Of a stretch of DNA of 64,000 bases, positions 583-39,665 are shown one piece after another. Source of the stretch: Crocinitomicaceae bacterium. GTDB taxonomy: Bacteria > Bacteroidota > Bacteroidia > Flavobacteriales_D > Crocinitomicaceae. A program made the translations under genes and the position numbers. The stretch's first letter is position 1. Each line of letters starts with the position of its first letter. The notes beneath the pieces are model-generated. The model was not told the DNA's origin and ran no database searches. It saw nothing but the letters and a program-made list of their open reading frames with translations. The DNA lies in contig JAGYIR010000010.1 in the NCBI GenBank assembly GCA_018402525.1, positions 1-64,000 on the forward strand, given 5' to 3'.

Positions 583-840
583 TTCGATTCTTGAAAATTA
601 AATTGATGACAGGTGCGGGCCAAGCACAAGTTTTTGAATGATTAGTATTTAATGTGAGGGTTGTCCTAGTGTGGCAATGCCGCCTTATCCATCAGAGTAG
701 TGAGCCAGATTGTATTCTGACTTTCTTTTCTTCAATATACCAGGATCGAATGCTTGGTCGTGGTTTCCACTCCCTCTCGTGCGAGTCATGACATTGAGAG
801 AATTCGATTGTGTTCCAACACATTACATGCTAAGATCATC

Positions 841-6304: not shown

Positions 6305-6369
6305 ATGCTTGATTTGTTTAAACATTTTAGAATAGACATATTTATTGAACAAAACTACTACGCATTCTT

Positions 6370-7846: not shown

Positions 7847-8479
7847 AGTGTCGACTTTCACCCACGCTCCTAGGTTCCACCTCAAACGCGTGGAAACCAA
7901 CAGCCACGCGAGATAGCCAATCTACTAGTAGTACAAACGAGTTGCTGTAGAATATCGGATATCGAAATTCTAATTCCTATTTTCCATAACTGCAGCATAT
8001 CAGAAACCCCGTGAAATGATGCATTCATTCGTGTAGGCTACAGATCATGACGTCCTAATTCGCACATGTACATGGCAATGTACCATTTCACGCGGGAACA
8101 TGGAGATGAACCTCCGCGGAGGCCTCTGCCCATGAATAGGTGCCTGAATACTCACTAGTGCCACTCATGAGTGATCACATGTGGACATGTCCATGTACAT
8201 ATATGTATACTTGTAGCTACACTGTACAGCACTACATGTAGTGATGAAGTTTCTGACTGTAGTCAGACCATCATAAAATATGATCCATCCTCTTCCAATC
8301 GCTACTCAATTGAAAATACTACTGTGAATCTTGTATCTATACATTAAATTGTGGGTGGATATGCAGATAGGATAGCCTGTGCGCCTTGTCTATACCAGTG
8401 AGTTGCGCCTGTCATGCAAGTATAATTTATCCGAGGAGCAGACATCTCGATCCTTATACAAGTACAATAGTACATTTAA
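7847..8479. promoter_or_regulatory. Divergent promoter region with clustered short palindromes
   Basis: This 633-bp region lies between the start codons of the protease (minus) and RRP40 (plus) genes. Between about 8111 and 8212 it holds a run of perfect short palindromes: CCTCCGCGGAGG at 8111-8122, ACTCATGAGT at 8163-8172, then TGATCA, CACATGTG, GGACATGTCC, ATGTACAT, ACATATATGT and GTATAC. They may be binding sites for dimeric factors. No gene is visible. Confidence 0.4.
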
Positions 8480-9373
8480 ATGGCACAATCTAGTGGTGTT
8501 CGGGTAGTGCTCCCAGGAGACGTGGTGTTGCCTCAACTTCCCAAGGAAGGGATCATTCAAATGGGCTCTGGCGTATTTGTTTCTGATTCAGGTCCGGATG
8601 GTAGGGAAGTTGTAGCCAACCAAGCAGGAATTGTGAAGGAAGAGCAGGATGGCGACAGTGGACGTACAAGTATATGGGTACTATCTCGACAGAAATTGTA
8701 TTCCCCTTCTGTGGGAGATGCTGTTGTTGGCACAGTCGTGCATCGATACACAGAGCATTATGAAGTCGACATAGATTCTACATACACAGCATTGTTGCCT
8801 ATTCTTGCTTTTGAGAATGCGAGCAAGAGAAATAGGCCAATGCTGAGGGAAGGGGATGTTGTGTATGGGAGGGTTGTCCATGTGGACACGGGCATACCAA
8901 GGTGTATACTACATTGCTCAGATGCTTCTGGGAAATCATCCGGATATGGACCGCTGTACAACAGTTCTCAGACATCGACTAATAAGAGAGGAATGTTGTA
9001 TCGGATTTCAACAATGTATGCGAGAGAAATACTGTTGCAGTCGTCAGCAGCTGGGCAGGATGGTATGGGCATTCTGAACATTTTGGGGACGAGAATTCCG
9101 TTTGAGATTGCGATTGGAATGAATGGATTATTTTGGATAACTTCAAACTCATCAAGCAGTGCTTCCAAACAGTATGTAGAGACGTGCATCCTCGGGACTA
9201 CAATTCAAGCCTGTGAATCTTGCACAAAGCAGGTGGTGGAAGCATTGCAACGAGGTACGCAGCAGGAGAGCGGCAACGAGGTGATAGAGAATAGTTCTTC
9301 GATGTTCGCCAAATTACTTTCAAGACACGTGCTTGGGCAATTCAATGCTCAAGTCAATAGTTGGTCATCATGA
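8480..9373 (+). CDS. RRP40: Exosome complex RNA-binding subunit RRP40
   Basis: Cap subunit of the RNA exosome, which degrades and trims RNA 3'-5' in nucleus and cytoplasm. Single exon, 297 aa, a little longer than usual. The N-terminal domain starts VLPGDVVLPQL and includes MGSGVFVS. The S1 domain (about 75-145) begins YSPSVGDAVVGTVVHR and includes the strand GDVVYGRVVHVD. The KH domain holds the RRP40-specific GMNGLFWI segment (residues 213-220), matching the family's GxNGxxW motif. The Ser/Gly-rich C-terminus is probably disordered. The start is the first in-frame ATG after the divergent promoter. Confidence 0.92.
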   Translation: MAQSSGVRVVLPGDVVLPQLPKEGIIQMGSGVFVSDSGPDGREVVANQAGIVKEEQDGDSGRTSIWVLSRQKLYSPSVGDAVVGTVVHRYTEHYEVDIDSTYTALLPILAFENASKRNRPMLREGDVVYGRVVHVDTGIPRCILHCSDASGKSSGYGPLYNSSQTSTNKRGMLYRISTMYAREILLQSSAAGQDGMGILNILGTRIPFEIAIGMNGLFWITSNSSSSASKQYVETCILGTTIQACESCTKQVVEALQRGTQQESGNEVIENSSSMFAKLLSRHVLGQFNAQVNSWSS

Positions 9374-9547
9374 ACCTGTCATGACACATCATGGGGTAAC
9401 AGGAATACAGACCACGCCATGCATGAGAAGTATACCTATATAGGTGATGGACTCACTTCAGTCTGGATGAAGACCAAACAGTGATTAATGCTATGACATC
9501 TAGGTAATGATTTGGATCTCTTTAAGGATCGACTTAGGGAGTGAAAT

Positions 9548-11503
9548 TCATAAAGCTACATTTTTGAATGGAACCCATTGAAGTCGCATTGTCAGAGTGC
9601 ATGGCTTCGTGCTATCTGGCAGACCATAACCAGGAACAGGATTTAGCCTCCAAGATTTTGTGATATCTCCCATTGGTGCATGAGCTATATCATTCAATGG
9701 AATCTCCACACTACCAAGAAAATCATCTTTTGAGAATTTATCATAGTCAAAAACCTTCACTGAGAGCACTGACTCCCGTTTAATCTTGAACCACTCTAGT
9801 TTGCAATCATCCCACTTGGGAGAACATTCTCTGTGCATGACACAGGACTTCTTTGTAATATTAGCGCATGAGAATTTCACATATACATCTGATGATCCCA
9901 GAACAATGTCGGCTATCGGTATGTTTGATCCTTCGATTAGCGTCACCAGCAATGCCCCAACTGGCTCACTTGCGTGTCCCTTGATTAATTCAAGAGGCCA
10001 GTATGTGATTTCAAGGCTCACTTCTCCTCTTCCAGCCCCACAACCTGCAGGATTGCTGAATTCTTCTTGTCCAAGGGGAACCGTCATTGCACTCTTTTTC
10101 CCTGGATTGGAAGATATGTCTGCCAGTGAGATCTTGGCCCTTCCAATCAAATCAGCTGAACCAATAACTGATGCAGCTCCTTTGACCAAATTCACCCTAA
10201 AGAGCTCCTTCATGTTTACCATGTCCACATCAAACATTTTAAGGTGCAAAAATTGGTCTTCTGGTTCTTGAACAAGGAGCCAGTGTGTCTCTTCCCATAT
10301 GGGATTCAGAGTATTTGCCTTTTTCGTTGTTTTCTCTCTGTCTCCGTTCGGATCAACAAAGAGCTCCAAGAATGGATCAGCAGATCCGAATTTATCCATT
10401 CTGGGAAGCCCATTTCCAGACTTCACAAATACTTCAACTGCTCCTTTATTTCGCATATACAACCCCAGCAGAGGTCCAGTCTTTTCTTCTGGGAGGATTG
10501 GCACGACTATCCGCCTTGGCCACACAAGCATACTGGTGAAGGTTTCTCTTAAGAAGGGGTCGAGCCATGCTTTAACAGCTTTTGCTGATAGACTCCCACC
10601 GAAAGCAGCTCCGAAATCGAGATGGAACTTGACCAAGGGAGGTGTCATCAAGGACACTGTTGCAGCCCCAAAACCTGGAATCTCGGGCAACAAAGGGGAC
10701 AACACGATCCTTGCTTCCCCTGAGACGGCCAAATTGGTGACTTTAGGCACCATTCGAGTCGCTGAACCACCTGCCATCAGCTCAATCGCCAAAAATATAC
10801 TTGCATCTCCGGACCATCGAAATCCAACATCAATCTCAATCCTCTCAGAATCTCCCTTGTCTGGTACTTGAATGGTCTCTATCCGAAAGGGGGAGTCTCC
10901 AAACGTCAGCTTCTGAAACGAAATCTTCCGGATAAACGAGGGCCTGTATTCATCCAACATCGGTTCAACTTGACATTTGATTTCGTCACAAATGGCTTTA
11001 TCATAGTATGGCCAAGCTTGCCGAACAATGGAATTCAGCCACTCCATCTTTTCCACATCCGAGAAGTCCAGCCATAAGGGAATATTATGTAGCAAAAACT
11101 GGGTTCCTTTCTTCCCAGGGATCATCCCCAGTCGCTGATTACGCTCATCCTTCCATTTCTGATTCTGATAGTACACAGCAGTGCCAGCAACCCCAATGAC
11201 CATACCCACCACAATACTCTTCAACAACTCTGAGGATACATACAATTTCCAATGCACAACCGCAGATACAATCACTGTCAACCACACCAACCAGAATGAA
11301 GCAACAATTTTGGACCCCTGGATGTTGCTCTTGGCCCTTCCAGTCTGCACCCCAGTCTCTTCAACAACAGAAGTACTGGTAGAGTCCGACCCTCGACCTT
11401 GGACATCCCCAATACTAGATGTCCCCATCCCAGAATCATTTAATTTTGTATCATCGCTTATTTTCACAGAAGAAACCCCTCCCTGAAGCTTCCTTCGCTT
11501 CAT
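9548..11503 (-). CDS. Synaptotagmin/tricalbin-like protein: TM hairpin, SMP domain, two C2 domains
   Basis: Predicted ER-plasma membrane contact-site tether and lipid-transfer protein of the plant SYT/E-Syt family. Single exon, 651 aa from the ATG at 11503; in-frame sequence upstream has no ATG. A polar N-terminus of about 65 residues precedes two hydrophobic segments (about 68-84 and 92-112), a likely ER hairpin. The SMP domain covers about 137-330 (EWLNSIVRQAWPYYDKAI, PFRIETIQV). C2A starts near GAVEVFVKSGNGLPRMD with Asp ligands in DKFGSADPF and FDVDMVN. C2B starts near VGALLVTLIEG and keeps FDYDKFSKDDFLG, typical Ca2+-binding loop 3. It is divergent from the DUF3754 gene, which lies between this and a second SMP-C2 gene. 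Confidence 0.9.
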   Translation of the reverse strand: MKRRKLQGGVSSVKISDDTKLNDSGMGTSSIGDVQGRGSDSTSTSVVEETGVQTGRAKSNIQGSKIVASFWLVWLTVIVSAVVHWKLYVSSELLKSIVVGMVIGVAGTAVYYQNQKWKDERNQRLGMIPGKKGTQFLLHNIPLWLDFSDVEKMEWLNSIVRQAWPYYDKAICDEIKCQVEPMLDEYRPSFIRKISFQKLTFGDSPFRIETIQVPDKGDSERIEIDVGFRWSGDASIFLAIELMAGGSATRMVPKVTNLAVSGEARIVLSPLLPEIPGFGAATVSLMTPPLVKFHLDFGAAFGGSLSAKAVKAWLDPFLRETFTSMLVWPRRIVVPILPEEKTGPLLGLYMRNKGAVEVFVKSGNGLPRMDKFGSADPFLELFVDPNGDREKTTKKANTLNPIWEETHWLLVQEPEDQFLHLKMFDVDMVNMKELFRVNLVKGAASVIGSADLIGRAKISLADISSNPGKKSAMTVPLGQEEFSNPAGCGAGRGEVSLEITYWPLELIKGHASEPVGALLVTLIEGSNIPIADIVLGSSDVYVKFSCANITKKSCVMHRECSPKWDDCKLEWFKIKRESVLSVKVFDYDKFSKDDFLGSVEIPLNDIAHAPMGDITKSWRLNPVPGYGLPDSTKPCTLTMRLQWVPFKNVAL

Positions 11504-11832
11504 CTTGTTGTTTGTGAGACTTTGAGACAGACACGCAATCAATTCAACTCGATTTGATATACCTGTGATCTACCATCAAATGGATATGAATCAATTAATT
11601 AGACAGGGGTTGAAATGAAGTGATGAACGAGTATTGACCCAATCCGAAGCGTACGGTGCCGTAGCAAAGCATTGGCGCGCACGCCCAGTACTGCCCAAAG
11701 ATCTCATCAGTCAAGATCTCTCCCTGGTGGTCGCTGTCCATAAGAATGATGGCTAGAAGCATGCTTTGATATAGAAATTATCATATGAAAGAAAGCTTTG
11801 GGTGTTAGGCGTGTCTGTGGTATAGGGTGGAC
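11504..11832. promoter_or_regulatory. Divergent promoter between SMP-C2 and DUF3754 genes
   Basis: These 329 bp separate two outward-pointing start codons. No ORF or RNA gene is visible. A shared bidirectional promoter for a lipid-transfer protein and a membrane protein of unknown function is plausible from the layout only. Confidence 0.4.
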
Positions 11833-13729
11833 ATGTCAGAATTCGCGAGGACGTCTTGGCACGTCTCTGTGGGTTCAGATTGTGTAAGAACAAGCCCTAG
11901 TAGATTCATTGATATCACAGATGGTGATTTGGAAGAATACTGTATAGGTGCGTGAGGGGATTGAGAGTATCCCTGGAATGTACTTGTGTGGTTGATTGCA
12001 ATATGCCCGATATCCTGCAGGGATTTTGTCAGAATATCCCGCAAAAGACATCAAATCGATTTACAGTCTTGGACAGGCCATTTGTAGTGCGAAGCATAGT
12101 GAGTTGAAGATCGGCTTGGAGCAGGATTTTGAGTACTTCGCCCGTGCATATGATGGCGTTGAGATGCCCAGGCATCTCAAGACATTATCTGAGGAGGAGA
12201 TTGGTGCTCGAGAAGAAAGATTCCTTTCAAACATGGTGACGGTACTGATGAAGAACCATTATCATATTCTGACAGAGCAGGAATGGGAAGCGGCTGCTGC
12301 AGAAGATTTTCTGTTGACTTTGCCAGTCAATGTGAAGTGGGATTCAATGGATGATTCTTTGTTCGATCGTACCGTGTGGAAATCTTTTCCAGAGATGAAA
12401 GATGAATATCCTGTATGTTTAAGAGATAGGATTTTAATTTTTCACAGGGGAGTGACCTGTGCCAAAATGGAGGGCAAGTACTTTGCACAGAAAGTGGAGA
12501 TATTGATTTCTTTTCTCATCATTCAGCCAATCCTGAGGCTTCTTCTATGGACACTGGGTAGGGTAGGATTACGAAACATTCACCGATTGAATACAAATGT
12601 CGAGATTTCGTCATCTTTGTACATGCGGCAGTCGTCACTGGAGGGCAATGCAGAGCAGATTGCAGTGCAAGGAGATGATCACGCTGCTTCAATTTGTATT
12701 GAGAGGCGAACCTTTCACCATATTTTCCCAGATGCTCGCTCAGTTTTTAGAATGATGTTTAAGACGATTCAATTGCAAGAGGCCTGCTGGAAGGATGTCA
12801 TTGTCGTGTACAGAATGGCAAATACCTCTGGTCCTCGCCATGAATTTGATATCAAGTCATCCATGGCTGACGAGGCGGTAGACAGAAATATAGTCTTAAA
12901 AAGGTTTTCATCTATTCCCATTGCTGATATGGAGATTGTGTTTCCAGAGAAAAACATCCACATGCCCCCAAGTGTACTGGTCAACATTGCCATCACGCTC
13001 ATCGGAGCCATTGTGACATTGATAGCCACAATACGAGGAGGACTGAGTTTGACAAGTTTCTGGACGACTCTAACCATGCTTGGAACTCGATTGGGACAAG
13101 TGCTGCAGACGAAAAGGTCTGAGAAATCAGAGATCGAAAGATCAATGGGCCAACTCCTCTCGCAAAGAACTGTAGCATCGCAGAATGCCGCTTTATCCTC
13201 AATCATTAATGATATGTTTTCCCAGCTGGTGAGACAGGTTATATTTGCATACTTTGTTTTGCTCAAGCATCATGGGAGTACAATGGCCCAGCTGGATGAA
13301 CGTTGCGAGCAGATTCTAAAGCAAACGTTTGATTTGTCAATCGACTTCACCTGCCAAGAGGCAATTCAGGTTCTGAAGAAGTGGAGCATCGTCACAGAGG
13401 ATCCAACAGGAAGACTTCTTCCCCTTGAAATTGACACGTGCAAAATAAAGTTGACGGATGTTCTGGTGGCATCTTCAGTCCACCAAAGGAGCACCTTTCA
13501 GGAAACCCTCAAAGGCCTAGGTCTCCAGTTTGGGTCAACGGTGAAAGAGTCCAGTTCGCACAGCATCAGGGCCATTGATGATATGAGGAAAAGTTCTGTG
13601 CAAGCGATTCACGACTTCATAGGACCAAAGGTATCACGAGCGAAGACCCCTACATCAGGCCATATGGCTAGTCAAAGCCACAGTAATCCCATCAAATCGC
13701 TCTTTCTAAGAAGGCGAAGAAAGGAGTGA
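11833..13729 (+). CDS. DUF3754 (TMEM143-like) membrane protein
   Basis: Member of the DUF3754 family, whose biochemical role is unknown; the animal member TMEM143 is mitochondrial. Two exons: 11833-11947 and 12021-13729, joined in phase 1 by a 73-nt intron (GTGCGTGAG...CTGCAG), giving ...EEYCIGILSEYPAKD. The product is 607 aa. The family core runs from about residue 60 (DFEYFARAYDGVEMP) through FLLTLPVNV and ILIFHRGV, with a hydrophobic segment at ISFLIIQPILRLLLWTL. A C-terminal TM pair begins at VLVNIAITLIGAIVTLIATI. The extreme C-terminus is basic (LFLRRRRKE). The gene sits between two SMP-C2 genes and is divergent from the first. Confidence 0.85.
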
Positions 13730-13816
13730 ATTGATCATCATATAATATAAAATTGAAACATTGAATTGAATTACTGAACAACACCCATCCACGGCGGCAC
13801 AGTGCATATTCACCAC

Positions 13817-15951
13817 ATGCTGATTTCCTTGCTTGTTGGGTTTCCCTTGGGTGTCAACCTCGGAATACTGGTACGATACCCAGATGATATCGATGTATAT
13901 AAATATGTAGATGATGTGCACGGAGCTTGCCTTGTAGATCGGAAACATCTTATTCAAGAATGTGTACAGGCGGACTCCCAAGGCCTTCCTGGCCCTATGT
14001 GACGAGTCTGCTGATAGCAATACTGAGATAGAGTTTCCCCCTGGAGAGATCAATGTTTCCTTCTTCAAGCAGAGGCTGCTGAAGGACACGTCTCCAGCTC
14101 TGTCAGAACCTGACTACGAGAGAGTACGTTCCTTTGTATTGACGTTGTCGTTCACGAATAGATCTACTGATTGGGTCTATACGCACTGACGTTATGCAGA
14201 TTCGATTCATGAACACGCTATTACGGCAGTTATGGCCCCATTTGTCTCCAGCGCTTCACAAAGAGATCATAGTTCAATCCAAAGCACCTGTTCAGGAAAT
14301 GGTCAAAAAAATCCCTCTTCTGACGAATGTTCGCGTGGATACGATGGATTTAGGAACAAGACCTTTTCGCATAGACTCGGTTAAATCTTGTTCTGTGGGG
14401 GAAAATGTGATCATGCTGGAAGCGCCACTCTTTTGGGGAGGAGATATTATGGTGCGGGTTGTGGTCGAAGCTGATGTTGCAGGGAAGACAGTGGACATTC
14501 CCATTCAAGTCTCTTGCGTGCAATTCAAGGCTCTTGTACGCATTACTATGTATCCACTTGTGGAGAAGTTGCCTTGTATTGGTGGTGTGGCCATGTCACT
14601 CCTTGAGCAACCAACTGTGGATATGGATTTGAGGGTTTTGGACTCTCCAGATTTGCTCAGCATTCCTCCTATGGCTATCATACGAAAGATTGTGCTGAGT
14701 TTGTTGGCGGGAAAATATCTTCTCTACCCTAATGAAATTTCTGTGCCAATTATGCCCAACTTTGGTTTGCCAGAGCCCCCAAAAGGTATCCTGAGGATAC
14801 ACATTGCATATGGCAGGAACCTCAAATCTTCTTGGCTGGATGAAGTGGATCCTTTTGTTGAAATTGAGGTTCGAAAGGGAAGGAATGTGTCCACTAAAGT
14901 TATTGAAAATGCCACAAATCCTGTGTGGAATGAGACAAAGGAAGTTATTGTGGATGATTTTGAGTCACAGAAACTCAAGGTCACTGTATATGATGATAAC
15001 TTTATCACATCGTCACTGGTTGGAGGTGTGTACTTGGAGCTCTCATCAGCACCATTCGTTGAGAACCCAAATCAGATGTATCGAATGCTGCTTCCCGTAT
15101 ATGCTCCAAAAGAAAAAGGCGTGTATCAAACCATAAAGGGCTCAGACATGCGCAGTGCCCATGACGCTGCCTATGTGGAAGACAAAGTGAGAGAAGAGGT
15201 TGCGAAAAAGCCTCAAGCCAAACTACTGATCCCAATGCTCATGAGAAAACGGGCAGCTAAGAAGGCAAGGAAAGAAGCACTGAACGCATTGGCGGATGGC
15301 AACCCTGAGATGCGACCCAGTGGCAGGGGCCCTCTGGCAACTTCATCCCAAGGTGATGCACCTGAATCGCTACCAGAGGATGATAAAGCAACAGTGAATG
15401 GCCAAGTATGCCTTGATGTGACATTCATTCCATTCGCAAGTAGTAGCCATGAAGAGAAATCAGAAAAGGATCCGCGACCTGATTCTGTTTTGAAAAGAAC
15501 AATCACCTTCTCCAAATCACCAAGATGCAAGGGTGTGCTCTCTGTCCATGTATCCAAGGCAATGTATCTAGGAGATAGCAAGACCACATACGTAGAGTTA
15601 GTGGTCACTGACCCATCAAGACAACCCAATCCAGATATCAGTATTATGTCACCAAAAGAGGTCAACGAGCAGAATCCCAAGTACAACTACAAGGCAGACT
15701 TTGTCAACATATCAACGCAGTCAACACTAACACTGACGATTTACGAGGTTGCTGGCATGGAAAATATGTTGAGTGCTAGTCTTGGCTTACTGAGACACCG
15801 TGAACCTCGGATAGTTGGCTTTGTCATCATTCCGGTTAAGGAAGTATCAGAAATGGGCCACCAGAGGGGTAAATATACGTTGAGCGGGGCACAGTCTGGA
15901 GAAATCCATCTAGGTCTCTCCTGGCTTGAGCTAGAGCTCGATGATATTTGA
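13817..15951 (+). CDS. Second SMP-C2 membrane tether protein (tricalbin/SYT-like)
   Basis: Predicted ER-anchored lipid-transfer tether. Three exons in phase 0: 13817-13870, 13938-14123 and 14200-15951, introns 67 and 76 nt. The splices give one N-terminal membrane segment (LLVGFPLGVNLGILIGNILF) followed by a basic NVYRR. Product 663 aa. The SMP domain starts near ERIRFMNTLLRQLWPHL and includes PFRIDSVKS. A C2 domain starts at KGILRIHIAYGRNL with Asp in DEVDPFVEIEV and VYDDNF. A Lys/Arg-rich linker (MLMRKRAAKKARKEA) follows, then a divergent C2-like domain (KGVLSVHVSKAMYLGDS) whose acidic loop residues look incomplete. It differs from the 9.5-kb paralogue in having a single membrane segment and a degenerate last C2. 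The ATG is the first in frame. Confidence 0.87.
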
Positions 15952-16317
15952 TTCTCTCTGCTCTTTTCTCGAAAAAGTCGATGGAAGAGTATTTGACTGG
16001 ATGATACGCCACCATATGGTGACAAGATGCGATATTGTGGTGTCGATTGAAATGTCTGTCCCTGTACAGGGTATAGGGTAAAGTCTGTCGACCGTCGTCA
16101 CGACATCTGTATGCATGGTCAATCCCGATCGACCTGTACACTTAAAGCTTGAAGTTCCTTTTAGACAGGAAGTAACAACGTGTATATCCATTCAAAGCAT
16201 ATTGTAAGAAAACCCGGGTTCCTGCCGCAGTGACTTTGACAAGCACAGAGTCACCAGGGTGTAGGCACCACACCAGACCCTTGGAGTACCATTAGTTTGT
16301 TTAATATTCATTTTGTG
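15952..16317. other. Intergenic, no gene seen
   Basis: This stretch of 366 bp lies between the SMP-C2 stop and the bZIP start. It should hold the 3' UTR of the first and the promoter of the second. An alternative bZIP initiation upstream at a non-ATG codon is possible but unsupported. Confidence 0.4.
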
Positions 16318-17985
16318 ATGAATGGTCGTGGAACTGGCAGAGGGGGACTTGGGGTAGGGGGCGGTGAATCAGGGCCCCATTCGGAATCAGATATTCACCT
16401 CTCTCAGTTGCATCAACTGGCGAAGATGTTGAGAGTGACGCAAGAAACTCTCATAAAGCGGGGTGTGGATCCATCACCGGAGAATATGGCAGCATATCTG
16501 CTCCAGGCATTGGTGCAGTCCAGTACTCCACTGCAGGAGCAGCAGCAGCAGCAGCATGACTACGACATGGAACTGGTGCATCAGAATGAAACAGATCCAG
16601 AACCTACTGTTTACTATCCAATACCTTCTAAGGCTGAGGATGTACCTGAAAGACTCTCTAGAATGCTTGAGGAGGTGTACAGGGCAAGAGGACTGCCACT
16701 TCCCCTCTCAAAGCCTGGAGAAGCCATGGCAAAACGTCGTCGAAGAACTACAGATGTCACAGAGCACGAGAATATGCAAATAGATATGCGATGGGCAGCT
16801 GAGAAAGTAGTTGTGCAGGATGGCCCTGAGATAATGAAAGTGCAGGATGATTCTGAGAAAGTGAAAGTGCAAGATGATACAGACAAGATAATTGACAGGA
16901 TTGCCAAAGCGAGGGTAAGAAATCGTGAGGCACAGCAAAGATTCAGAAACAGGCGACGTGAAAAGATTGTCGGGATGGAAACAGATTATACAGTTTTACG
17001 CGACATGTGTCGGAGAATCGAGGAAGACAATCTTGCCTTGGAACAGAAAGCACACTATCTTTCGCGGATTATTATCATGAGAGAGATCATTCTGCATTCA
17101 TTGTCGTGTGAGCCTCCCGAGAAAGACAGCATGCTTTACAGGATTCTTGGAGAAACAGGGTTTGGAAGAACAGGTGAGTCCACTCCTAAAAATGATGGAA
17201 AGGAGAGCAGCTCAGAAGAAGAAGAAGAAGGCCAACGTGAAGAGCCTATTGAAGAAGTGATGGAGGAGAGGCCCGGCTCTTCTGGCAATTTGGATGAGAT
17301 TTATCGAATTGCGCATTCGTTGGACGATCCAGAATCATTCTTTTTGTACTGGAGGGAGTGGCAGATAGAGATCAAGCATAGCTTGGCAGAATACGATCAA
17401 TTTAAGAACAATGAGACGCGAGAAGATGTGATTCGCAAATTTGATAAAATGGTCAAAATCTGGGCTGTGAATAGTCGCTTGTATCCAAACAATTTTAAAG
17501 TGATGGTTGCAGATCATTCCATGCCTGAAGAACAGGGAAGTATGAGATGGAGGGATATTGCCAGAAGGGTGTTTGAAACTATGACTGAGGACAAGGTTCA
17601 ATTGCTGAATGAGTATTGGGACAAATTCATGGCAAAAATGTCAGACTACTACTCGAGGAGGGTTGATGTTGCAGAAAAGCTTGCAAACCATCAAGATTCG
17701 ATCAAGGACCACAACCCTGACAAGTACTGCTTGAAAAACATGAGCAATAATCACTTGTTGTTGGGATATTTGATAGGGTCTCTGAATTATTTAAGTGAAA
17801 AGACCTGGATTACAAATGTGCGACTGTCATCTGGGTGGACTGTTGCAATTGGGGAGTGGAATTCGTGCATCTGTAATGCCCTTGCAGCTCCGTATCCTCC
17901 CAATTGGGTTGCCATCTGCAAAGAAATTGTAGATATTGGGAAATCGACGAATATAGTTAAGAAAAATGATGATATGAATCAATGA
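16318..17985 (+). CDS. bZIP transcription factor with unrecognised C-terminal domain
   Basis: Predicted nuclear DNA-binding factor. Single exon, 555 aa from the ATG at 16318. A Gly-rich start and a Gln run (EQQQQQ) precede the basic region near residue 200, KARVRNREAQQRFRNRRREK, which keeps the N-x7-R signature (NREAQQRFR). The zipper (DYTVLRDMCRRIEEDNLALE) is short. Just before the basic region a motif like KVQDDxEK is repeated three times. After an acidic linker comes a helical, Trp/Tyr-rich domain of about 230 residues (SFFLYWREWQIEIKHSLAEY to GWTVAIGEWNSCICNALAAP). I considered a DOG1 domain as in plant TGA factors but could not see its signatures, so the domain is left unassigned. Stop codons of this and PEX22 are 14 bp apart, convergent. 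Confidence 0.8.
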   Translation: MNGRGTGRGGLGVGGGESGPHSESDIHLSQLHQLAKMLRVTQETLIKRGVDPSPENMAAYLLQALVQSSTPLQEQQQQQHDYDMELVHQNETDPEPTVYYPIPSKAEDVPERLSRMLEEVYRARGLPLPLSKPGEAMAKRRRRTTDVTEHENMQIDMRWAAEKVVVQDGPEIMKVQDDSEKVKVQDDTDKIIDRIAKARVRNREAQQRFRNRRREKIVGMETDYTVLRDMCRRIEEDNLALEQKAHYLSRIIIMREIILHSLSCEPPEKDSMLYRILGETGFGRTGESTPKNDGKESSSEEEEEGQREEPIEEVMEERPGSSGNLDEIYRIAHSLDDPESFFLYWREWQIEIKHSLAEYDQFKNNETREDVIRKFDKMVKIWAVNSRLYPNNFKVMVADHSMPEEQGSMRWRDIARRVFETMTEDKVQLLNEYWDKFMAKMSDYYSRRVDVAEKLANHQDSIKDHNPDKYCLKNMSNNHLLLGYLIGSLNYLSEKTWITNVRLSSGWTVAIGEWNSCICNALAAPYPPNWVAICKEIVDIGKSTNIVKKNDDMNQ

Positions 17986-17999
17986 ATGTGAATGCTGTT

Positions 18000-18823
18000 C
18001 TAGCCTTTCAGTGATGTGAGTGATTGACGTAAACTCTCACCATTAGAAAGGCATGTAACCGACAAAAATCTACGTAGTTCCTTGCATATCTCTTCATTTA
18101 TATCAATATATATAGTTGGTTCAATCTGCCGTGCAATTGAAACTTTACTCGCAGCTGAATTGCAAAATATGACCCTATGGAATGGGATCATGGGCACCTG
18201 TGATGTCTCACCAATTATCCCTGCGTGTTCCAAGACATCTGACACCACTGCCTGCCCAATATCGTCTTCTACTTGACACACCAAAAATACATCCTTCCCT
18301 AATCCGATGATCTCTTTCACAACCTCCACTGCAGAGTCCACAAGACTGGCCCCCTGAGTTGACAACTCTTCAGGCGTTCTCTCGTGCACTATAGTGCCAC
18401 CCACGGACAAGACAATCGATGAAACCCTGGACAGTTGTTGCTTCAGAGAAGAATCGCGTCCTGCTCTATGTAAAGCTTGCGCAGGACTCGAAAGCTCCAC
18501 TCCAGACACTCCTACACTGTCGGAAGCAGCTCTAGTTTGCCCCCTTGCCCTAGGTTCGTGTAATCCTGCACACCAATGAAAAGACATGGTTGATAAAACT
18601 AGGCATACATTCATTGTCGATGCCACGCACTCTTCTTTTGTCTATAGTAAGCATACAGAGCTGCCCCAAGAGCCAAACCCAAGACACCTCCAGAGAGTGA
18701 TACTCTGGATAGAAGCCTCTGAGAACAGGTAGAACTTATTAATCATATCTTCATATAATATTCACATGTCCTGAAAAGAATATAGCATACCAAGACAAAG
18801 GAGAGGAGACCAGAAAAAACCAT
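18000..18823 (-). CDS. PEX22: Peroxin 22 (PEX22-like)
   Basis: Peroxisomal membrane anchor that recruits the ubiquitin-conjugating enzyme PEX4 for recycling the import receptor PEX5. Three exons rebuilt by phase: 18823-18791, 18718-18631, 18565-18000 (introns 72 and 65 nt), 228 aa. Exons 1-2 give MVFSGLLSFVLRLLSRVSLS and one membrane segment (GGVLGLALGAALYAYY) followed by basic RQKKR, the usual PEX22 anchor. The cytosolic Rossmann-like domain ends HRVIFCNSAASKVSIARQIE and IDINEEICKELRRFL, which matches the plant PEX22 C-terminus (VLFC..G...VRQLEP..HID...I). Without the two upstream exons the protein would lack its membrane anchor. Confidence 0.85.
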
Positions 18824-18940
18824 TTTAGAGCATACTACTACGTCAGCGATACGAGTCTCTAATTGTCTACTTTAAACAATAACTGATTTCATATTGAAAC
18901 TTGTAACTACGCTATGCTGTCTGACTGACAAAAGCACAGC

Positions 18941-20737
18941 ATGGGTGATACAAGTAGGGAAGAACTGGTTGCGCTAGGAAGGCAAAAGGTACGACAGGTG
19001 GCTCAATAGAGCATGGAATGCCGCGATTTCATAACAAGGGATCACTTTTGCTCTAGTTGGAAGAATTCAGGCAAAGGAGGCGCGATGAAGAGAGGCAAAG
19101 CAAGGCTTTGTCAACGCAACTGAAGGCAGAAACACCCGGGCCATGCCAAGATGACACAGGGATAGTGACTAGCAACGTTAGAGTGGAGTCTAAGGATGGT
19201 AATGGATCCGAGCAACTAGCAGTGTATGACAATCAAGTCTCCCGGGCTTCACAACAGTGTGACAAGCAGACTCTGGGAACAAACATTCTTCAATCCAGTG
19301 CACTTGCAGGTAACTCCAAGTCATCTGACGAATCAATACGCGATCAGGAGAGCCCTACAATGGGCTCAAATGTTGATGAACCTATTTGGGGAGTTGTGGA
19401 CAGCAGAAGGGATTTAAACTTGGATGAAACAGAACGTGTTGAGGATGTGGACAACCTTCCCAACAGCACTGCTGGAATAGGACACAATGAGAACATTCAG
19501 TTTGAGGCTAGTCTTTTTTTGATCCCAAGAGATGATGATGCCCAAAGGGGCCATGGCAGGCGCGCAGAGGGACTGGATGGAGCAAGCCCTGATGTTGTTT
19601 CCAAAGACAGCAGCAACAGGGAGGATGAGGAGGGTGATGACATGAAGAGAAGTGTACTCTTTGAGAAAAGGTGCGACCGATATTCATCCGTATGATTCAG
19701 TGATTCTCTTTTTAATGCTGCTCTTATGAATTTTGCCATCCACTACCATTGCATTCTGAATGTGTTCAGGAGAAACTTTGAAAGACTCCAAGAGCATATT
19801 GATGCTTTAACTTCGGAAAAGATGGACCTTTCGTTATGTCTGCAGCAACAAACAAATCTTGTTCGACGTTTGACAGAGGAGAACGAGAGAATGGTGCAGA
19901 AGCTGAATGCTGCTGCCAGTAAGGAGGAACACCTCCAAGAATCTGTGCTGAATTTAGAAAGAGATAAAAAGGCCATTGAGAGCCGTGCCTTGCTATCTGA
20001 GAAGGAATTAGACATCAAAGAGAAAGAGAACAGGAGTCTTGCTGCGAAGGTCAAGGTACTTGGGAGCGAACTTGTCAATTTGGAGGAAAATCTCCACAAT
20101 GCAAAAGAGAGGATGCAGTCAGAATACATCCATGGAGGCGGGAAAGATGCAGAGGAGCATCAGGGATATGCGTATAAAAAGGAAAACGATGAGTTAAGAA
20201 GCGAAATATGCATGTTGCAGGACACTGTCGGAAAGTTGCAGCAATCATTGAGAGAATCAGAAATTCAGCTGGCCGCTGCCCTTGAAGCTCAAGATACTCA
20301 AAAGCAACAGATTGCTGAAACAAACAAAGAACGTCAGTCATGCCCATTAACTAGAACAATTGCACTGAGATCTGTATCGAATGTGAGCCCGTCATTTGAA
20401 GGAAGAACGCCTGTGTTGCCGGTGGAGACTCGAGCACTGCTCCCTAACAGAGCATGCCTTCTAAAGAATGATCTGTTCCAGGAAGACATTGAATCGCTTG
20501 CAGAACGCGTATATCTTTTATTGAACAGGAATCCAAGAGCTTGACCGCATGAGCAATTTCCACTTTGCGCGAAATGTATATCACCACGCTCCTGGAGCTC
20601 CCCGAGTTGGCAGGCTCCCCAGGGACTGGGCCAAATGCATGTCAGCATCGGGCTGTCGACCATTTCGTATCGAACCCGTCCCAGACACGGTCATACTGAC
20701 AAGGTTGATCGAAAAGGCACAAGTGTATAAAGGCTGA
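18941..20737 (+). CDS. Golgin-like coiled-coil protein, apparent frameshift near the 3' end
   Basis: Likely Golgi-type coiled-coil tether. Exons: 18941-18988, 19057-19670, 19770-20544, introns 68 and 99 nt, phases 0 and 2. The start MGDTSREELVALGRQKLEEF resembles the N-terminal motif shared by GM130 and plant golgins (xxLAAxxKKLxxF). A polar, disordered stretch follows, then a long coiled coil from RRNFERLQEHIDALTSEKMD (about residue 220 on). In the literal sequence the frame stops at 20544 after LLLNRNPRA. Dropping one G at 20529-20530 continues the coil as LLLNRIQELDRMSNFHF and opens the frame to 20737. I therefore give 20737 as the end and treat 20530 as a frameshift or sequence error; 20544 is the literal end. 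Confidence 0.7.
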
Positions 20738-27799: not shown

Positions 27800-29632
27800 C
27801 TAGTACCCATCATAGGACACATGAATCTGATGAAATGGAAGGCTGGCTCGTAGGATACACGCACTTATTTCATGAGGAGCCTGCGAAAAAGCACTTGAGA
27901 ATCCAAATATTGAGATGGATCTTGTTGATGAGCAAATTTCTATACGGCCGCCTCCCAACACCTCGAGGTTCACAGAATCTTCTACCTGTCTGATCTCGTT
28001 CTTGGCCACCGAGAATATGTGATTGTGATATGCTGCTCTAGGATCACCACGAACAATGAGCCTGCTAGTCTTCCTGTCAGATGATTCAGACTTGAATGAC
28101 ACGCGTAACAAAATATACTTCATCTTGCCATCATTGTCGAGAGGAATGTTGTGCGGAGGAATATTCGGTCCCAAGTTTCGTTGTCCCAACACTTTTTGGA
28201 TGGATTCGCTAATGAGCCTGTTGGCCAACGCATGTTTCCCAGGGATGTGAAAACCAAACATACCTGACTCTTGCTTGTTATCCTTTCGCAGCTCGTTATC
28301 CAGACAAGAAACATGAAACCATCTGGCATCTTCTAGCTCATCTTGATCACAATTTATTTCCGGTAGAGATAGGCCAGGTCGGAAAGCATGAACCTCCTCC
28401 TCTAAGATACCAACATGCTTTGCGGCTACTTGGCCCTCACTGCTCAACAACTGAAATCCTAATGGTGCCATCGCAATATCCTTTGTCTGCGCAGTGAAGC
28501 CAACCATGAGAGATTGAGGAAAAGGCCATGGTTGGCTACTATGATATTCTATTGAACTTGGATCGAGACTGACATCGGATTCTTCTTTGATTTCTCTCAT
28601 ACACGCAGTTTCCAAGGTTTCCCCTACCTCTACAAAACCTGCCAGCAGGGAGTACCTTCCATATTTCCACGATGCTTTCCTTCCCAAAAGAAACCAGTCA
28701 CCATGCATAGCCCCAACTATTACAGCGGGATCTATTCTGGGATACAAAGACCTTGAGGCGTTTCTCTTGCCCTTGACCCTCCTTCCATGCCCACTCAAAA
28801 TGATTTCATTCGCCCGATCACCTGTCTGTGAGCAAAATTGAGTTTTTGAATGCCAGGTAAAAAGTCCACTGGACAAGGCCAGAATAGAGGCATCCTCTGC
28901 ACACATCTTGGGGCCTTCCTTCCTGACATCAATTGAGAAGGCATGCTGGAATTGAATCGGTACATCCTTAACATTATAAGCAAAAACAGCAGTGTTATCC
29001 TTCGTGTAAATCCCTAAAAATATGCAGCCTGGGTCCTCACATTTCAGAGAGATTTGGTTAGGAGTCGCGACAACAGGAACAAACAAGGCCGTTTTGCCCT
29101 CTGCGTCTACAGGTCCCTCGGAATTACAAAATGAACTCGTCACACCATCTTCATATGGTAAGGCCAACGCACATCCATCCAGGAAAAGGACTATCTTTGT
29201 GTCTGGCTGCTGCAATAAGTCTGAAATGGTTGATCCATCACCCCTCAGTACACCAGCTCTGTCCAGAGGAAGAGAGGAGAAGTGACAAGGTTGCACGACC
29301 TGGCGTCCATCTTTCGTCGACTTTAAAGAGCTCAACCCTCCCTCCCTCCCAAATCTGAGCTTCGTGCCGTTGCCTTTCCTCAGAGGAGCACCAGCCTGCC
29401 ACCTGGTCATCTGTCCACTCAGTCCATGTACATCAGGTACTCGTGGGATCGAGTGATATATCAGCGATGAGCAATTCCAGATACATGCGTTTGAGCCAAC
29501 CATGCGTTGCGACGAGAAGAGCCAATGTGGCTGCCTGAAGTGGGTGGCACTTGTGCCCACTCCACCACGGATGACTCTGAAGAATCGCATGAGATACTTA
29601 TATACAGAGTTAGCACCTTTGATGACGCGCAT
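27800..29632 (-). CDS. NUDIX NADH pyrophosphatase fused to a PHPT1/Janus phosphohistidine phosphatase
   Basis: Single exon, 610 aa. Residues 1-45 are Arg-rich and nearly free of acidic residues (organelle presequence-like). Residues about 140-490 are a NudC-type NADH pyrophosphatase: YPRIDPAVIV at 297-306, Nudix box at 332-354 (GFVEVGETLETACMREIKEE) and the family tag SQPWPFPQS at 366-374. Residues 501-610 match animal PHPT1 to its last residues: DGKMKYILLRV, IVRGDPRAAYHNHIF (His536 aligned to catalytic His53), LGGGRIEI, FGFSSAFSQAPHEIS, SYDGY. Two oddities: the zinc ribbon keeps only one of four Cys (FCSQTGD), and the last Gly of the Nudix box is Asp (EESDV). The frame is open throughout, so this is a real fusion or a very tight readthrough. 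Confidence 0.88.
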   Translation of the reverse strand: MRVIKGANSVYKYLMRFFRVIRGGVGTSATHFRQPHWLFSSQRMVGSNACIWNCSSLIYHSIPRVPDVHGLSGQMTRWQAGAPLRKGNGTKLRFGREGGLSSLKSTKDGRQVVQPCHFSSLPLDRAGVLRGDGSTISDLLQQPDTKIVLFLDGCALALPYEDGVTSSFCNSEGPVDAEGKTALFVPVVATPNQISLKCEDPGCIFLGIYTKDNTAVFAYNVKDVPIQFQHAFSIDVRKEGPKMCAEDASILALSSGLFTWHSKTQFCSQTGDRANEIILSGHGRRVKGKRNASRSLYPRIDPAVIVGAMHGDWFLLGRKASWKYGRYSLLAGFVEVGETLETACMREIKEESDVSLDPSSIEYHSSQPWPFPQSLMVGFTAQTKDIAMAPLGFQLLSSEGQVAAKHVGILEEEVHAFRPGLSLPEINCDQDELEDARWFHVSCLDNELRKDNKQESGMFGFHIPGKHALANRLISESIQKVLGQRNLGPNIPPHNIPLDNDGKMKYILLRVSFKSESSDRKTSRLIVRGDPRAAYHNHIFSVAKNEIRQVEDSVNLEVLGGGRIEICSSTRSISIFGFSSAFSQAPHEISACILRASLPFHQIHVSYDGY

Positions 29633-34202: not shown

Positions 34203-36714
34203 TTACAGGGTACTAATTTCATTGTTGTGCAAGTAACATCCTGCCCTCCAAGACTGCACACAGTTGACTTGACTCAGCCTCTCCAAAAGAGTGGGAAGAA
34301 GATGTATTGGCCCTTCCAACTCATAATTCATTGAAAAAATATTTGTTGTTTTCTCCTTTGATCCGCTATACGATAAAATGTTGTGATTATATCGTGAGAT
34401 CACATTTGAAATATCTGCTAGCAAGCCGGACCTATCGACGCATTGGATGCTCAGCCAATATGACTGTGAACTAGTGATATCTGCAACATTGTTACGATTG
34501 AGCAGATTATCCACAGCCACCTCATCTGATGGTCCCATGAAACCAGAATTTTCCTTCAAAAATTTTAAAATTTTATGCCTAGCGCTCTTTGTTTGCGCAG
34601 CATCCAACCATTGTCGATGCCTTCTCACAATGTTTGCATTTGCTGGACCCTTGTAAGTGATCACCTCTACGACTTCTGCATTAGCAAGCCTATGTTCTGC
34701 TGGAACAATTTTACCATTCACCCTTGCTGCAACCATTGTGTTCCCTATATCCGTATGGATATGGTATGCAAAGTCTACAACAGATGCTCCCTTGGGTAAA
34801 CGCATCACTTGACCTGATGGGGTGAACACGAATACACCTTGTCCAAGCAGATCACCTGTTACACAGGCAACAAATTCTTTTGCTGACAGAGTTCCCAAAA
34901 ATTCTTCTTGCCACTGCCTGATCGAATTAAGCCAATTAATCCTGCGGGTCATCGAGTAAGAGTCTAATTTTTGTGGAGACATGCTCAGCCTTCCATTGAA
35001 AACTGCTTGGTCCTCCTTTTCCCTGACAGGAAATCCTCCCACATGATTACTCGTGATAATTCCTTCAGCGTTGTTCCCATCTTCTTCGACACTGTCATGG
35101 TTTGACCTGGAAAATTCATCTGCACACTGCCACGAATCAATCGCAATTCCAAATTGTGCTAGTCTCTCCATCTCTCCGGTTTTGATCTGTATTTCGATTG
35201 GAAATAGAGCCTGTGAGTACTTTCCCTTGCTTACCTTGCCACCATTTGAGCTATCATTTGGAATGACCAGCCCTGTTGGTATCACTGTCGTATGCAGTGA
35301 TTGGTAATTGTTGGGCTTTGGGGTAGCTATATAATCCTTCATTGATCCAGGTATTGGCGCCCAAAATGAGTGAATAAGCCCCATTGCATGGTAGCACAGT
35401 TGTCTCTCTGATGCAGCTGCACCTACAGCATCACAGGATGTCGATTTCACAGGATCCAAGATTACTCGGATCTGTGCAATTTCAGAAATCTCACGGATGG
35501 ATCTTCCACTGTCATGAAGCTTTCTCCAGATACTGTAGAGAGACTTTCTTGATATTTCAATGTGCACTTTTCGAAGTAAATCTGTCAAATATGGGTCATC
35601 TGCCATCCTCCGCTGGAGGTCAAATGATGCAGCCTCTACTGCTATTCTTTGTGACTCCCATACACGATCCACTACACGTCTAGTCATGGCATACTGCTGT
35701 GGCATTGCATAATAGAAACTAAGTTCTTCTAGCTCCTCTTTGATCGTGTAAAGTCCCAGAAGCCTTGCTAGTGGGGAGAACACCTCTAATGTTTCTTGAG
35801 CAATCCTCCGCTGCTTGTTTTGAGGCATCGATGCCATTGTTCTCATGTTATGCAACCGATCTGCCAGTTTTACTACAATTATGCGAACTTCTTCCGTCAT
35901 GGCAAGGAACAGGAACTGCAAATCCTGTGCTTTGGTATCAGATTTTGTTAAGCAGTTGGACTGTTCTTCTGCTGCACCCTTGGATCTCTCAGGATGATGA
36001 GTGGGAAGCTTACTAAACTTTGTCTCTCCTTCCACAATGCGTTGCACCGATTGGCCGAAATAAAATCCGATCTCTTCAAGTCCAACTGTCTCACCACAGT
36101 CTTCAACAGTGTCATGAAGCAAACCAGCAATAAGAGAGTCTGAATCCATGCGAAGCTCCGCAAGAATACGTGTAACTTCTACAGGATGTGTGATAAAAGG
36201 CTCACCGCTCTTTCTACTCTGGCCTTCATGCGCATCAAACGCGAGAGACAATGCCTCCCTCACCAAACCCTTCTCCTGTGGAGGTATGTATCCAAGCATG
36301 GGCATAAGCCTTGTATTCCATAGGTATTCCTCGGTTATATCCTCTTGTTTCATTCTTTGGTAAAATCCATAGTCCATCAACCCAACAGAAGGACTGTTGT
36401 GCGAGACGCATATCCTGTCTTGCCCTCGCGCTCCGTCAAAACATTGTTGCACAGTGCAAAACCGTCTGTCGTTTCTTCTGACCAAATTGAATAGTTTCTT
36501 CCTCCTCTCAGCACACACCAATGGTGAAAAATGAGTACTATTACCTGCGAACGAGACTCACGGTTCACAGAGGCTACCTCGCCAGCCAACGTACCGACAC
36601 CAACAGCCCTGAGCAGGGACTAGGAGTGTCATAAAACGATACAATAAACGTACCTGATCTTGTCGATGGCGTACTCTGCCCCAACGGACTTCTCGCAGCA
36701 CCACCTCGGTTCAT
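34203..36714 (-). CDS. RelA/SpoT homologue, RSH1-like (HD, synthetase-like, TGS, ACT)
   Basis: Plastid-type (p)ppGpp enzyme. Exons 36714-36654 and 36544-34203 joined by a 109-nt phase-1 intron, 800 aa. The HD hydrolase domain is intact: THPVEV, LLHDTVED (about 163-169) and KLADRLHNMRTM. The synthetase domain looks degenerate as in plant RSH1: ISRKSLYSIWRKL lacks the usual Gly, and AQIRVILDP replaces the D-R-A-R block, although NYQSLHT and EIQIKT remain. A TGS domain (VFVFTPSGQVMRLPKGASVV) and ACT domain (IQCVDRSGLLADISNVISRY) follow. I infer that it mainly hydrolyses (p)ppGpp. The rebuilt N-terminus (MNRGGAARSPLGQSTPSTRS) is Ser/Arg-rich like a transit peptide. An RSH4-like gene lies directly upstream on the same strand. 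Confidence 0.9.
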
Positions 36715-37061: not shown

Positions 37062-39665
37062 TTAAATACGAACTGGATCATGTGTGAGGACAACAAAATC
37101 GCCATCTTTCAAAAGAGTACTTTTCGTAACCAGCTTGTTGTTCACATTGATAAAATCTTCAGGTTCAGAGTTCGAGGGCACAGCCAGAGTTGTGTCCCAT
37201 AACCCACCTGCAGTAGTTCCTTTCGGAACCCTGATAATCTTGCCACTAGGCCAAAGCAACACCATAATGTCTCTTTGAAATGTTGCCTCGAGCCCCACTT
37301 CTTCCACATTCCGACTTCTCGTTACTTCGTCCTCTACATCAATGCCCCATTCAATCATGGATCGAAGGAGTTTTATTCTATTATTCATGTAAGTATTCTC
37401 TTCCTCGCCCTTAGAAGTATGTGGTGGCGAAATGGAGCGGCAGTCTGGAGGGCTACGATTGTCTTTTTCTGGCAGTTGCAACAAAACACAGGTTGTCGCA
37501 AATTTATGCCCAAATCTGTCCATCTGGTGGTATTTTCCATCTGAACACAAGGTGAAAAGCTCTAACGTAACATTCATATCCCCTTGAGAGGGTGAGAAGT
37601 ATCCCTTATCAGTCACGTATGAGTACAAGTGCTCATAAAGCTCAGAATCTGCAGTAATTGGAGAACCATTGCCCACAGACTTATTAGCATAGGATGATGC
37701 TACGAGTAGCCTACTACCATTCGGCTCTGTTTTGATCACTACTCCATCTCTAAGGTTTCCACTGGCAGATATCCTGAGTACAGGGTGACCTGGAACAAAA
37801 GATGGCAGGCCATCTACACCTTCCTGCCTACTCTCAGACTTCTCTTTGTAAGCCCAGTGAGCTGCTTTACCGTACTCTGCTTCTTCATGCATCGTGGATG
37901 TCCTGATCTGGACTTCCATGGGTATTCCTCCCGGGCCTAGGACGGCGGTGTGAAGAGACTGATACCCAGAAGGTTTGGGGACGGCAATATAGTCATCATC
38001 TTCGCCTGGCACTTTCCTCCAGAGCCTATGAACAGCAGGAAGCACTTTGTAACAAATTTCAATCGCATCTTTTTCATTCGCTCCACATTTATCATCGACA
38101 ACGACTCTAAGAGCTCTTAGATCATATACTTCAGCGAGTGGAACACCCTTTCTGGCCATCTTCTTAAACGAAGAGTACATACTTTTTATCCTACCCTGCA
38201 CACTGATCTCCAGATTTGTTGCAATGCCCTCTATTATCAGCTCTTGCAAAAGAGCTTTGGCACATCTTTTCAGTACTTCTAAACCTCGCCTAGCACCAGG
38301 GGCAATTCTAATTCTCTCCATGTTGAATGTTGACACATCAAATGGCAAAACTGTGGAAATCAAATCCCTGACCTCTATTTGATCATCTGTCAGAAATGAT
38401 GTAGAATCAAAATATCCTGAAAGAGATGAGGCATTCCACTCTCCTTCATTTTGCATGCTGGCACTGGATGAACCCATCAACTCTGGGTTACCACTAATGC
38501 AGCTCCCAACATTGCCGCTGCCTCGTGATTTCTCGCTGACGAGGTCCATATTGATCATAGATATATCTGCAATCGTTTCGATACCCCACAGCTGCTCTAA
38601 ATCTCCACGTAGAGCAACATAAGCTGATGGCTCCAGAACTGCAAAGCACAAATCTTCCAACTCACTCTTCAATGCAAACATCCCTAATCTCTCTGCAAGG
38701 GAGCACCAGATCTTCTGTGTTTCTTCTGCCACTGCCCTTTGCTTGTCTGGCCCCAAAGCATACACTGTCCTCATATTATGAAGTCTGTCGGCTAATTTGA
38801 TCACAATGACCAGAGGCTCGGACACCATAGTGACAATCATAGCTCTTAGCTTATCAATCTGTTTGGCAGTCTGCTTTTCCTGCTTCAATCTCAACTTCCG
38901 TCTCACGAGTTGGTTGGTCGCACTTAGCTGACTCACTTTGGTTACCATTGACATGACGTGTTCCCCAAACAACTGTCCAATGTAATCAGGCTGAATTTCG
39001 CCATCGTCAATGACATCATGGAGAATTGCTGTGATAACAGCTTCTTCTGCTCTCGAGTCTTCTTCGTATGGTGACAGTAAGGCTTCAACAATCAAAGCTG
39101 TTTCGATGCAATGGGTAATATAAGGCTGACCAGTTTTTCGAAACTGCCCTGCATGTGCCTTTGTTGCCACAGCTACAGCCTCTTTGACCCTCTCTCGTCC
39201 GAAGAACTTTGACTGAGACACGTCGATTCCAAATAGCTCATCCGCACCAGTAAACCCATCCTCTTCTGATGCATATCCACTCTCCAAGGCTGTAGATAAC
39301 ATCAAGGGCTCCATTTGAGCCCACAGGGAACGAGCACCAGCAATAAACACACTGCCCATCGCTACCGAAGCAACTAGAGCGCTCAGTAAAACAGTTGTTT
39401 CGTCCTTGCTCTGCATCGCAGTCCACCCGAGAAAAGCATCATAGCACCCGTGTAAAGAACGAGGGGACCCTACACACATCCCCCCTGCACTTTTGAACCA
39501 CCATTGATACACAGCTATTGCCCCTCTGCGACTACGAATATATTCCGAAGAAATTTGACCGAAATATTTCCGCCGTGGGAGATGGTATTGTATTATGGTC
39601 CGGCACGGGCTTGCCATCCCAACTCGAGGACAAAAAGCTATCTCAGGGTAGCAGGGTGCGTACAT
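37062..39665 (-). CDS. RelA/SpoT homologue, RSH4-like, with intact synthetase domain
   Basis: Second (p)ppGpp enzyme. Single exon, 867 aa (ATG at 39665; a second Met at residue 17 starts MASPCRTIIQYHLPRRKYFG, a better transit-peptide start). A hydrophobic segment (LLSALVASVAMGSVFIAGA) lies near 95. The HD region keeps AGQFRKTGQPYITH, ILHDVIDD (Glu to Asp in the second acidic position) and KLADRLHNMRT. The synthetase domain is complete: VQGRIKSMYSSFKKM, YDLRALRVVVDD, VPKPSGYQSLHTAVLG and MEVQIRTSTMHEEAEYGKAA. A C-terminal TGS-like domain (DIMVLLWPSGKIIRVPKGTT) is present and no ACT domain. The RSH4 assignment comes from this layout, not from a tree. I infer that it is the main synthetase of the pair. 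Confidence 0.88.
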   Translation of the reverse strand: MYAPCYPEIAFCPRVGMASPCRTIIQYHLPRRKYFGQISSEYIRSRRGAIAVYQWWFKSAGGMCVGSPRSLHGCYDAFLGWTAMQSKDETTVLLSALVASVAMGSVFIAGARSLWAQMEPLMLSTALESGYASEEDGFTGADELFGIDVSQSKFFGRERVKEAVAVATKAHAGQFRKTGQPYITHCIETALIVEALLSPYEEDSRAEEAVITAILHDVIDDGEIQPDYIGQLFGEHVMSMVTKVSQLSATNQLVRRKLRLKQEKQTAKQIDKLRAMIVTMVSEPLVIVIKLADRLHNMRTVYALGPDKQRAVAEETQKIWCSLAERLGMFALKSELEDLCFAVLEPSAYVALRGDLEQLWGIETIADISMINMDLVSEKSRGSGNVGSCISGNPELMGSSSASMQNEGEWNASSLSGYFDSTSFLTDDQIEVRDLISTVLPFDVSTFNMERIRIAPGARRGLEVLKRCAKALLQELIIEGIATNLEISVQGRIKSMYSSFKKMARKGVPLAEVYDLRALRVVVDDKCGANEKDAIEICYKVLPAVHRLWRKVPGEDDDYIAVPKPSGYQSLHTAVLGPGGIPMEVQIRTSTMHEEAEYGKAAHWAYKEKSESRQEGVDGLPSFVPGHPVLRISASGNLRDGVVIKTEPNGSRLLVASSYANKSVGNGSPITADSELYEHLYSYVTDKGYFSPSQGDMNVTLELFTLCSDGKYHQMDRFGHKFATTCVLLQLPEKDNRSPPDCRSISPPHTSKGEEENTYMNNRIKLLRSMIEWGIDVEDEVTRSRNVEEVGLEATFQRDIMVLLWPSGKIIRVPKGTTAGGLWDTTLAVPSNSEPEDFINVNNKLVTKSTLLKDGDFVVLTHDPVRI

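Follow-up and report, generated by a model that had tools for sequence, protein, structure and literature searches.

The window analysed here is the first 64 kb (64,000 nucleotides) of contig C6 (603,575 bases; JAGYIR010000010.1), which belongs to a bin of 19 contigs and 3.16 Mb filed under a Crocinitomicaceae bacterium (GCA_018402525.1) and rated 98.32% complete and 1.46% contaminated. On its minus strand lies an open reading frame (ORF) of 610 codons, uninterrupted from ATG to stop between 29632 and 27800, that joins a Nudix domain of the SQPWP type, characteristic of NAD(P)H pyrophosphatases, to a Janus/Ocnus domain related to the phosphohistidine phosphatase PHPT1 (Table 1). By its domain content, the protein is a further member of a Nudix-Ocnus combination already described in the green lineage, and not a discovery.

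A single frame carries both domains

Translation of the minus strand gave zero internal stops; on the plus strand of the same interval, the single frame translated contains many. A Pfam scan of the protein placed PF00293 at residues 305-381 (E = 1.2e-9; 38.7 bits against a cut-off of 21.1) and PF05005 at residues 496-597 (E = 5.2e-22; 78.4 bits against a cut-off of 23), with nothing else reported at E ≤ 1. When solved chains were searched, this one query matched NUDT12 (E = 2.3e-26) as well as the 14 kDa phosphohistidine phosphatase (E = 8.2e-14). Both domain matches in the 610-codon protein are far above chance. The original prediction, made from the letters of the window and their translation, had proposed an uninterrupted frame of this length without stating its strand, and had assigned the protein to both families as a fusion; the frame holds, and the two profile matches above cut-off bear out the assignments. 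The motifs, too, lie in the translation where they had been placed: the Nudix box at residues 332-354, SQPWPFPQS at 366-374, DGKMKY from 501, LGGGRI (residues 559-564) and the terminal SYDGY.

Because alignments to plasmid-borne nudC genes span residues 118-479, we delimited a NudC-like core at these positions, preceded by an N-terminal extension and followed, at residues 480-500, by a short linker of about 20 residues that leads into the Ocnus domain. Two further measures were of limited help. The in-frame codon score is weak, since the true frame outscored the other five in no more than 4 of nine segments, and the score of the Ocnus part was about equalled by an antisense frame. Single-sequence structure predictions were too poor to use (mean pLDDT, the predicted local distance difference test score, 30.5 for the full protein and 34.9 for residues 486-610).

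Table 1. Features of the fused reading frame, with positions in the 64 kb window
Feature	Residues	Position	Strand	Basis
Whole ORF, SQPWP-type NAD(P)H pyrophosphatase (predicted) plus Janus/Ocnus domain	1-610	27800..29632	minus	ORF, Pfam matches; 610 codons plus stop
Basic N-terminal extension, possible organelle presequence	1-117	29282..29632	minus	composition, codon score
NudC-like core (pre-Nudix region, degenerate zinc ribbon, NUDIX domain)	118-479	28196..29281	minus	plasmid nudC, NF001299 and NUDT12 alignments
Zinc-ribbon place	260-300	28733..28855	minus	NUDT12 alignment, cysteine list
Nudix box GFVEVGETLETACMREIKEESDV	332-354	28571..28639	minus	motif in translation
SQPWPFPQS motif	366-374	28511..28537	minus	translation; SQPWPFPxS named in available text of PMC5118724
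Insertion relative to NUDT12, about 38 residues	382-423	28364..28489	minus	alignment to NUDT12
Janus/Ocnus domain, complete to C-terminus	501-610	27803..28132	minus	PF05005, PHPT1 alignments
His536, aligned to PHPT1 catalytic His53	536	28025..28027	minus	pairwise alignment; His53 role in available text of PMC11277029 and PMC4817053

The Nudix half

The presence of PF00293 together with an SQPWPFPxS motif downstream of the Nudix box identifies the first half as NudC/SQPWP-type. Its alignment to NUDT12 covers residues 246-381 and 424-475, and four plasmid records annotated as nudC align with the entire core at 27.3-27.9% identity (tblastn, among the matches listed). The model for the NUDIX-like N-terminal region, PF09296, was not reported at E ≤ 1, yet the tblastn alignment to annotated nudC begins as early as residue 118. 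The Nudix domain and an SQPWP-type motif are common to the window protein and to NUDT12/NudC (PDB 6o3p, 1vk6); the aligned chains of the latter have no Ocnus domain, which the window protein does have. A retained intron was considered for residues 382-423, as NUDT12 lacks this stretch, and was set aside on the in-frame codon score (0.191, the highest of the nine segments, by what is a weak measure); the insertion is probably coding.

Ahead of the core, residues 1-60 are devoid of aspartate and glutamate, residues 2-19 are amphipathic, and the codon score of the extension falls below zero by the same weak measure. Organelle presequences are poor in acidic residues and include an amphipathic stretch. 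An organelle location is plausible from this composition, with a start codon that might be Met 1, 15, 44 or 75. As for peroxisomal targeting signals, the type 2 pattern (PTS2) is absent from the fusion protein, and the SYDGY end is unlike the type 1 signal (PTS1).

The Janus/Ocnus half

All 110 C-terminal residues align with human PHPT1 (PDB 2ai6 and relatives) at 35% pairwise identity. The two share the DGY end and key residues; human PHPT1 stands alone, whereas the PHPT1-like domain of the window protein is fused to Nudix. His536, which the original prediction had singled out as the aligned catalytic histidine, does pair with His53 of PHPT1. According to the available text of PMC4817053, the catalytic site of PHPT1 comprises Lys21, His53, Ala54, Arg78, Ser94 and Ala96. 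Five of these six positions are identical here (K21, H53, R78, S94 and A96, corresponding to K505, H536, R563, S579 and A581), and the sixth, Ala54, is replaced by N537. PHPT1 His102, a residue noted in PMC11277029 as far as its available text goes, aligns to H587. The same text describes His53 as the proposed general base in a direct hydrolysis of phosphohistidine, and the evidence for PHPT1 action on phospholysine as limited. A profile search of the whole bin gave a single match to PF05005, at 82.5 bits; none of 14 control genomes contained one.

A published domain combination

A full-text literature search on Ocnus together with Nudix brought up a single paper, on plant and algal SQPWP Nudix enzymes (PMC5118724, Sci Rep 2016). 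As set out in its available text, these enzymes form two subgroups, both of which occur in moss, Klebsormidium, Chlamydomonas and Volvox; in Coccomyxa and two Micromonas, only subgroup II is represented. With the exception of the Micromonas enzymes, every member of subgroup II bears an additional Ocnus domain (printed “Oncus”). The window protein, an SQPWP Nudix enzyme by its motifs with an Ocnus domain added, conforms to this definition of subgroup II. Like Klebsormidium kfl00032_0450 (figure 1a of that paper), it has Nudix, SQPWPFPxS and Ocnus in one protein, a likeness of described domain content and not of domain order or sequence alignment. Two statements of the original prediction do not survive this comparison: that no fusion to an NADH pyrophosphatase had been described, and that PHPT1/Ocnus is known chiefly as an unfused protein of animals and some protists, which overlooks the green lineage.

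The same text provides a reference point for the Nudix half. AtNUDX19, of subgroup I, is a SQPWPFPxS-type Nudix enzyme and an NADPH pyrophosphohydrolase, and in this it resembles what is predicted for the first half of the window protein; of its three domains, none is listed as Ocnus, in contrast to the fusion. It is located in the chloroplast and peroxisome and, as its authors conclude, hydrolyses NADPH in vivo.

Relatives were also sought in sequence collections. With the whole protein as query, 6 stretches of viral contigs and 20 of prokaryote genome contigs matched a pattern and 0 were confirmed; the Ocnus alignment gave 18 and 40 pattern stretches, respectively, again with 0 confirmed, and the Ocnus domain had no match in phages. 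These contig scans use short peptide patterns over prokaryotes and viruses, so that their misses say little on algae. Among plasmids, 65 of 72,556 records matched and 0 reached 80% query coverage. In the best 15 of these 65, six matches are annotated nudC, the others have no gene name or annotation, and every alignment ends at or before query residue 479.

Proposed function

From the comparisons above, we consider it probable that the frame represents a eukaryotic nuclear gene, presumably green-algal, and that it encodes an NAD(P)H pyrophosphatase of SQPWP subgroup II that ends in a domain of the P-N phosphatase type. The product would be an AtNUDX19/NudC-type enzyme extended by Janus/Ocnus. 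Nudix enzymes of this type are expected to split NADPH or NADH at the pyrophosphate. The Nudix half would most likely hydrolyse these dinucleotides to reduced nicotinamide mononucleotide (NMNH) and adenylate, probably inside an organelle. For the C-terminal half, the fold of a PHPT1-type phosphatase is probable, in which His536 would be the general base and K505, R563 and S579 would be placed at the phosphate; it would remove phosphate from a P-N bond, that of phosphohistidine or phospholysine in a partner protein. Since these residues are present, we lean towards a domain that does hydrolyse a P-N phosphate. No P-N bond occurs in what cleavage of NAD(P)H yields, and the two halves therefore probably do not act sequentially on one small molecule. 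A location common to both, or the regulation of some phosphohistidine protein, seems to us a likelier reason for the fusion.

Several observations weigh against this reading. The Nudix box departs from the strict signature GX5EX7REUXEEXGU, D replacing the last G (EESDV); its RE and EE residues are retained. The zinc-ribbon stretch keeps Cys267 only, compared with four cysteines in NUDT12, and the zinc-ribbon model PF09297 was not reported for the fusion protein at E ≤ 1. The NAD(+) diphosphatase structure 8zb3 likewise has no cysteine in the aligned stretch, so that the loss is not unique to the fusion protein. The NudC model for NAD(+) diphosphatase, NF001299, matches residues 212-384 at 155.6 bits, narrowly below its cut-off of 158, and reaches 158.5 bits when neighbouring pieces in frame are counted. 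At E ≤ 0.001 this model matches all 14 control genomes, for which reason only its cut-off is telling; five of the 14 exceed it. On the side of the Ocnus domain, the substrate-binding residues of PHPT1 given in the available text of PMC4817053 are Glu51, Tyr52, His53, Tyr93 and Met95, and only two of the five (Y52 and H53) are retained. The scans of viral and prokaryote contigs yielded no fused relative, so that conservation of the fusion is documented by one source, the available text of PMC5118724. The reading as a whole derives from DNA sequence.

The losses in the substrate-binding pocket lend substance to the main competing view, that the Ocnus half is an inactive binding or regulatory module, engaged with a phosphorylated partner or in assembly, on an otherwise ordinary NADPH pyrophosphatase. 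Three pocket residues of PHPT1 are replaced (E51 by A534, Y93 by F578 and M95 by S580), and, in the text available of PMC5118724, the Micromonas subgroup II enzymes do without the domain and none is listed for AtNUDX19. Retention of the counterparts of K21, H53, R78, S94, A96 and H102, all of them superfluous for pure binding, speaks the other way. We regard such a module as a real possibility, if somewhat the less likely state of affairs. One could also envision more than the proposed P-N phosphatase domain calls for, namely an enzyme with two active sites that ties organellar NAD(P)H turnover to the removal of phosphate from histidine or lysine of a partner, a link that would have been lost in seed plants. 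An organellar nucleoside diphosphate kinase would be a candidate partner. This coupling is a tentative idea, and we think it rather unlikely.

It is also worth considering that two adjacent genes, or a chain of exons, are read as one frame by chance or sequencing error, the mature products being separate. The frame is known from DNA alone, the codon score of the linker (residues 481-500) is neutral, and introns seem to be present in other window genes; by eye, the kinase-like ORF at 59796-60452 ends early. However, the frame is uninterrupted, a linker of about 20 residues leaves scant room for a terminator and promoter, and the available text of PMC5118724 gives the same pairing of domains for five genera of the green lineage. 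Separate products are very improbable, and we return to a fused enzyme of the subgroup II type. A search of titles and abstract starts, covering the matches listed and including few subscription papers, yielded no additional study of the Ocnus domain in enzymes of this kind. The window protein adds one more example of a published combination whose second half appears biochemically unassayed in the literature found.

Origin of the DNA

A family scan of ten window proteins matched nine. Among these, Alg14, an MCM-binding protein and an SMP/C2 protein are of eukaryotic type; also present are two RelA/SpoT homologues and two NAD-dependent epimerases, together with a CRAL/TRIO protein and a protein kinase. 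Further along C6 lie a histone match, at C6:123535, by a model that archaeal controls match too (3 of 14), and a DUF382/PSP protein at 127.9-129.8 kb. The GC content of the contig falls from 0.44-0.48 before about 138 kb to 0.36-0.43 between that point and 200 kb, and later samples lie at 0.38-0.40; the survey of C6 left out 80,001-100,000. From about 137.6 kb onwards the genes are bacterial: they encode DNA polymerase III delta', PSP1, PorP/SprF and a protein that carries a type IX secretion signal domain, a set suggestive of Bacteroidota. Upstream of its listed GTG, the holB frame stays open for about 180 bases and, by eye, is HolB-like over only the last 16 or so residues of that extension. 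A join probably lies inside holB or just before it, near C6:137,550 (L032:17550), about 50 bases upstream of the listed GTG.

Most simply, C6 is a chimeric contig, part eukaryotic and part bacterial, and from the domain combination of the fusion protein we infer that the eukaryote is presumably a green alga. The contig was filed in a prokaryote bin and runs on into Bacteroidota-like DNA, as it would if the gene belonged to the binned bacterium and had been acquired from a eukaryote; the eukaryotic-type genes along the first part of the contig, the GC shift near 138 kb and the occurrence of PF05005 in just 1 of 395 sampled genomes of the host phylum, namely the present bin, leave that explanation next to no credence. 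The window and three further stretches of 20 kb gave no Rfam family at its gathering score, a scan with the bacterial code detected no tRNA in seven stretches, and neither the window nor the end of the contig has runs of telomere-type repeats.

C6 may not be the only contig of this kind. In G000:C4, GC is 0.547 over positions 1-20000 and 0.302 over 100001-120000, compared with about 0.36-0.42 in sampled contig starts outside C6; C4 may hold foreign or joined DNA too. Within the window itself, the SMP/C2 lipid-transfer-like protein (9548-11503, minus strand) has near it a second, similar C2-type protein (14194-15951, plus strand), the similarity being judged by eye only. The two RelA/SpoT homologues (34203-36377 and 37062-39665, both on the minus strand) adjoin and differ from each other, one having TGS and ACT domains and the other HD, RelA_SpoT and DUF7589.
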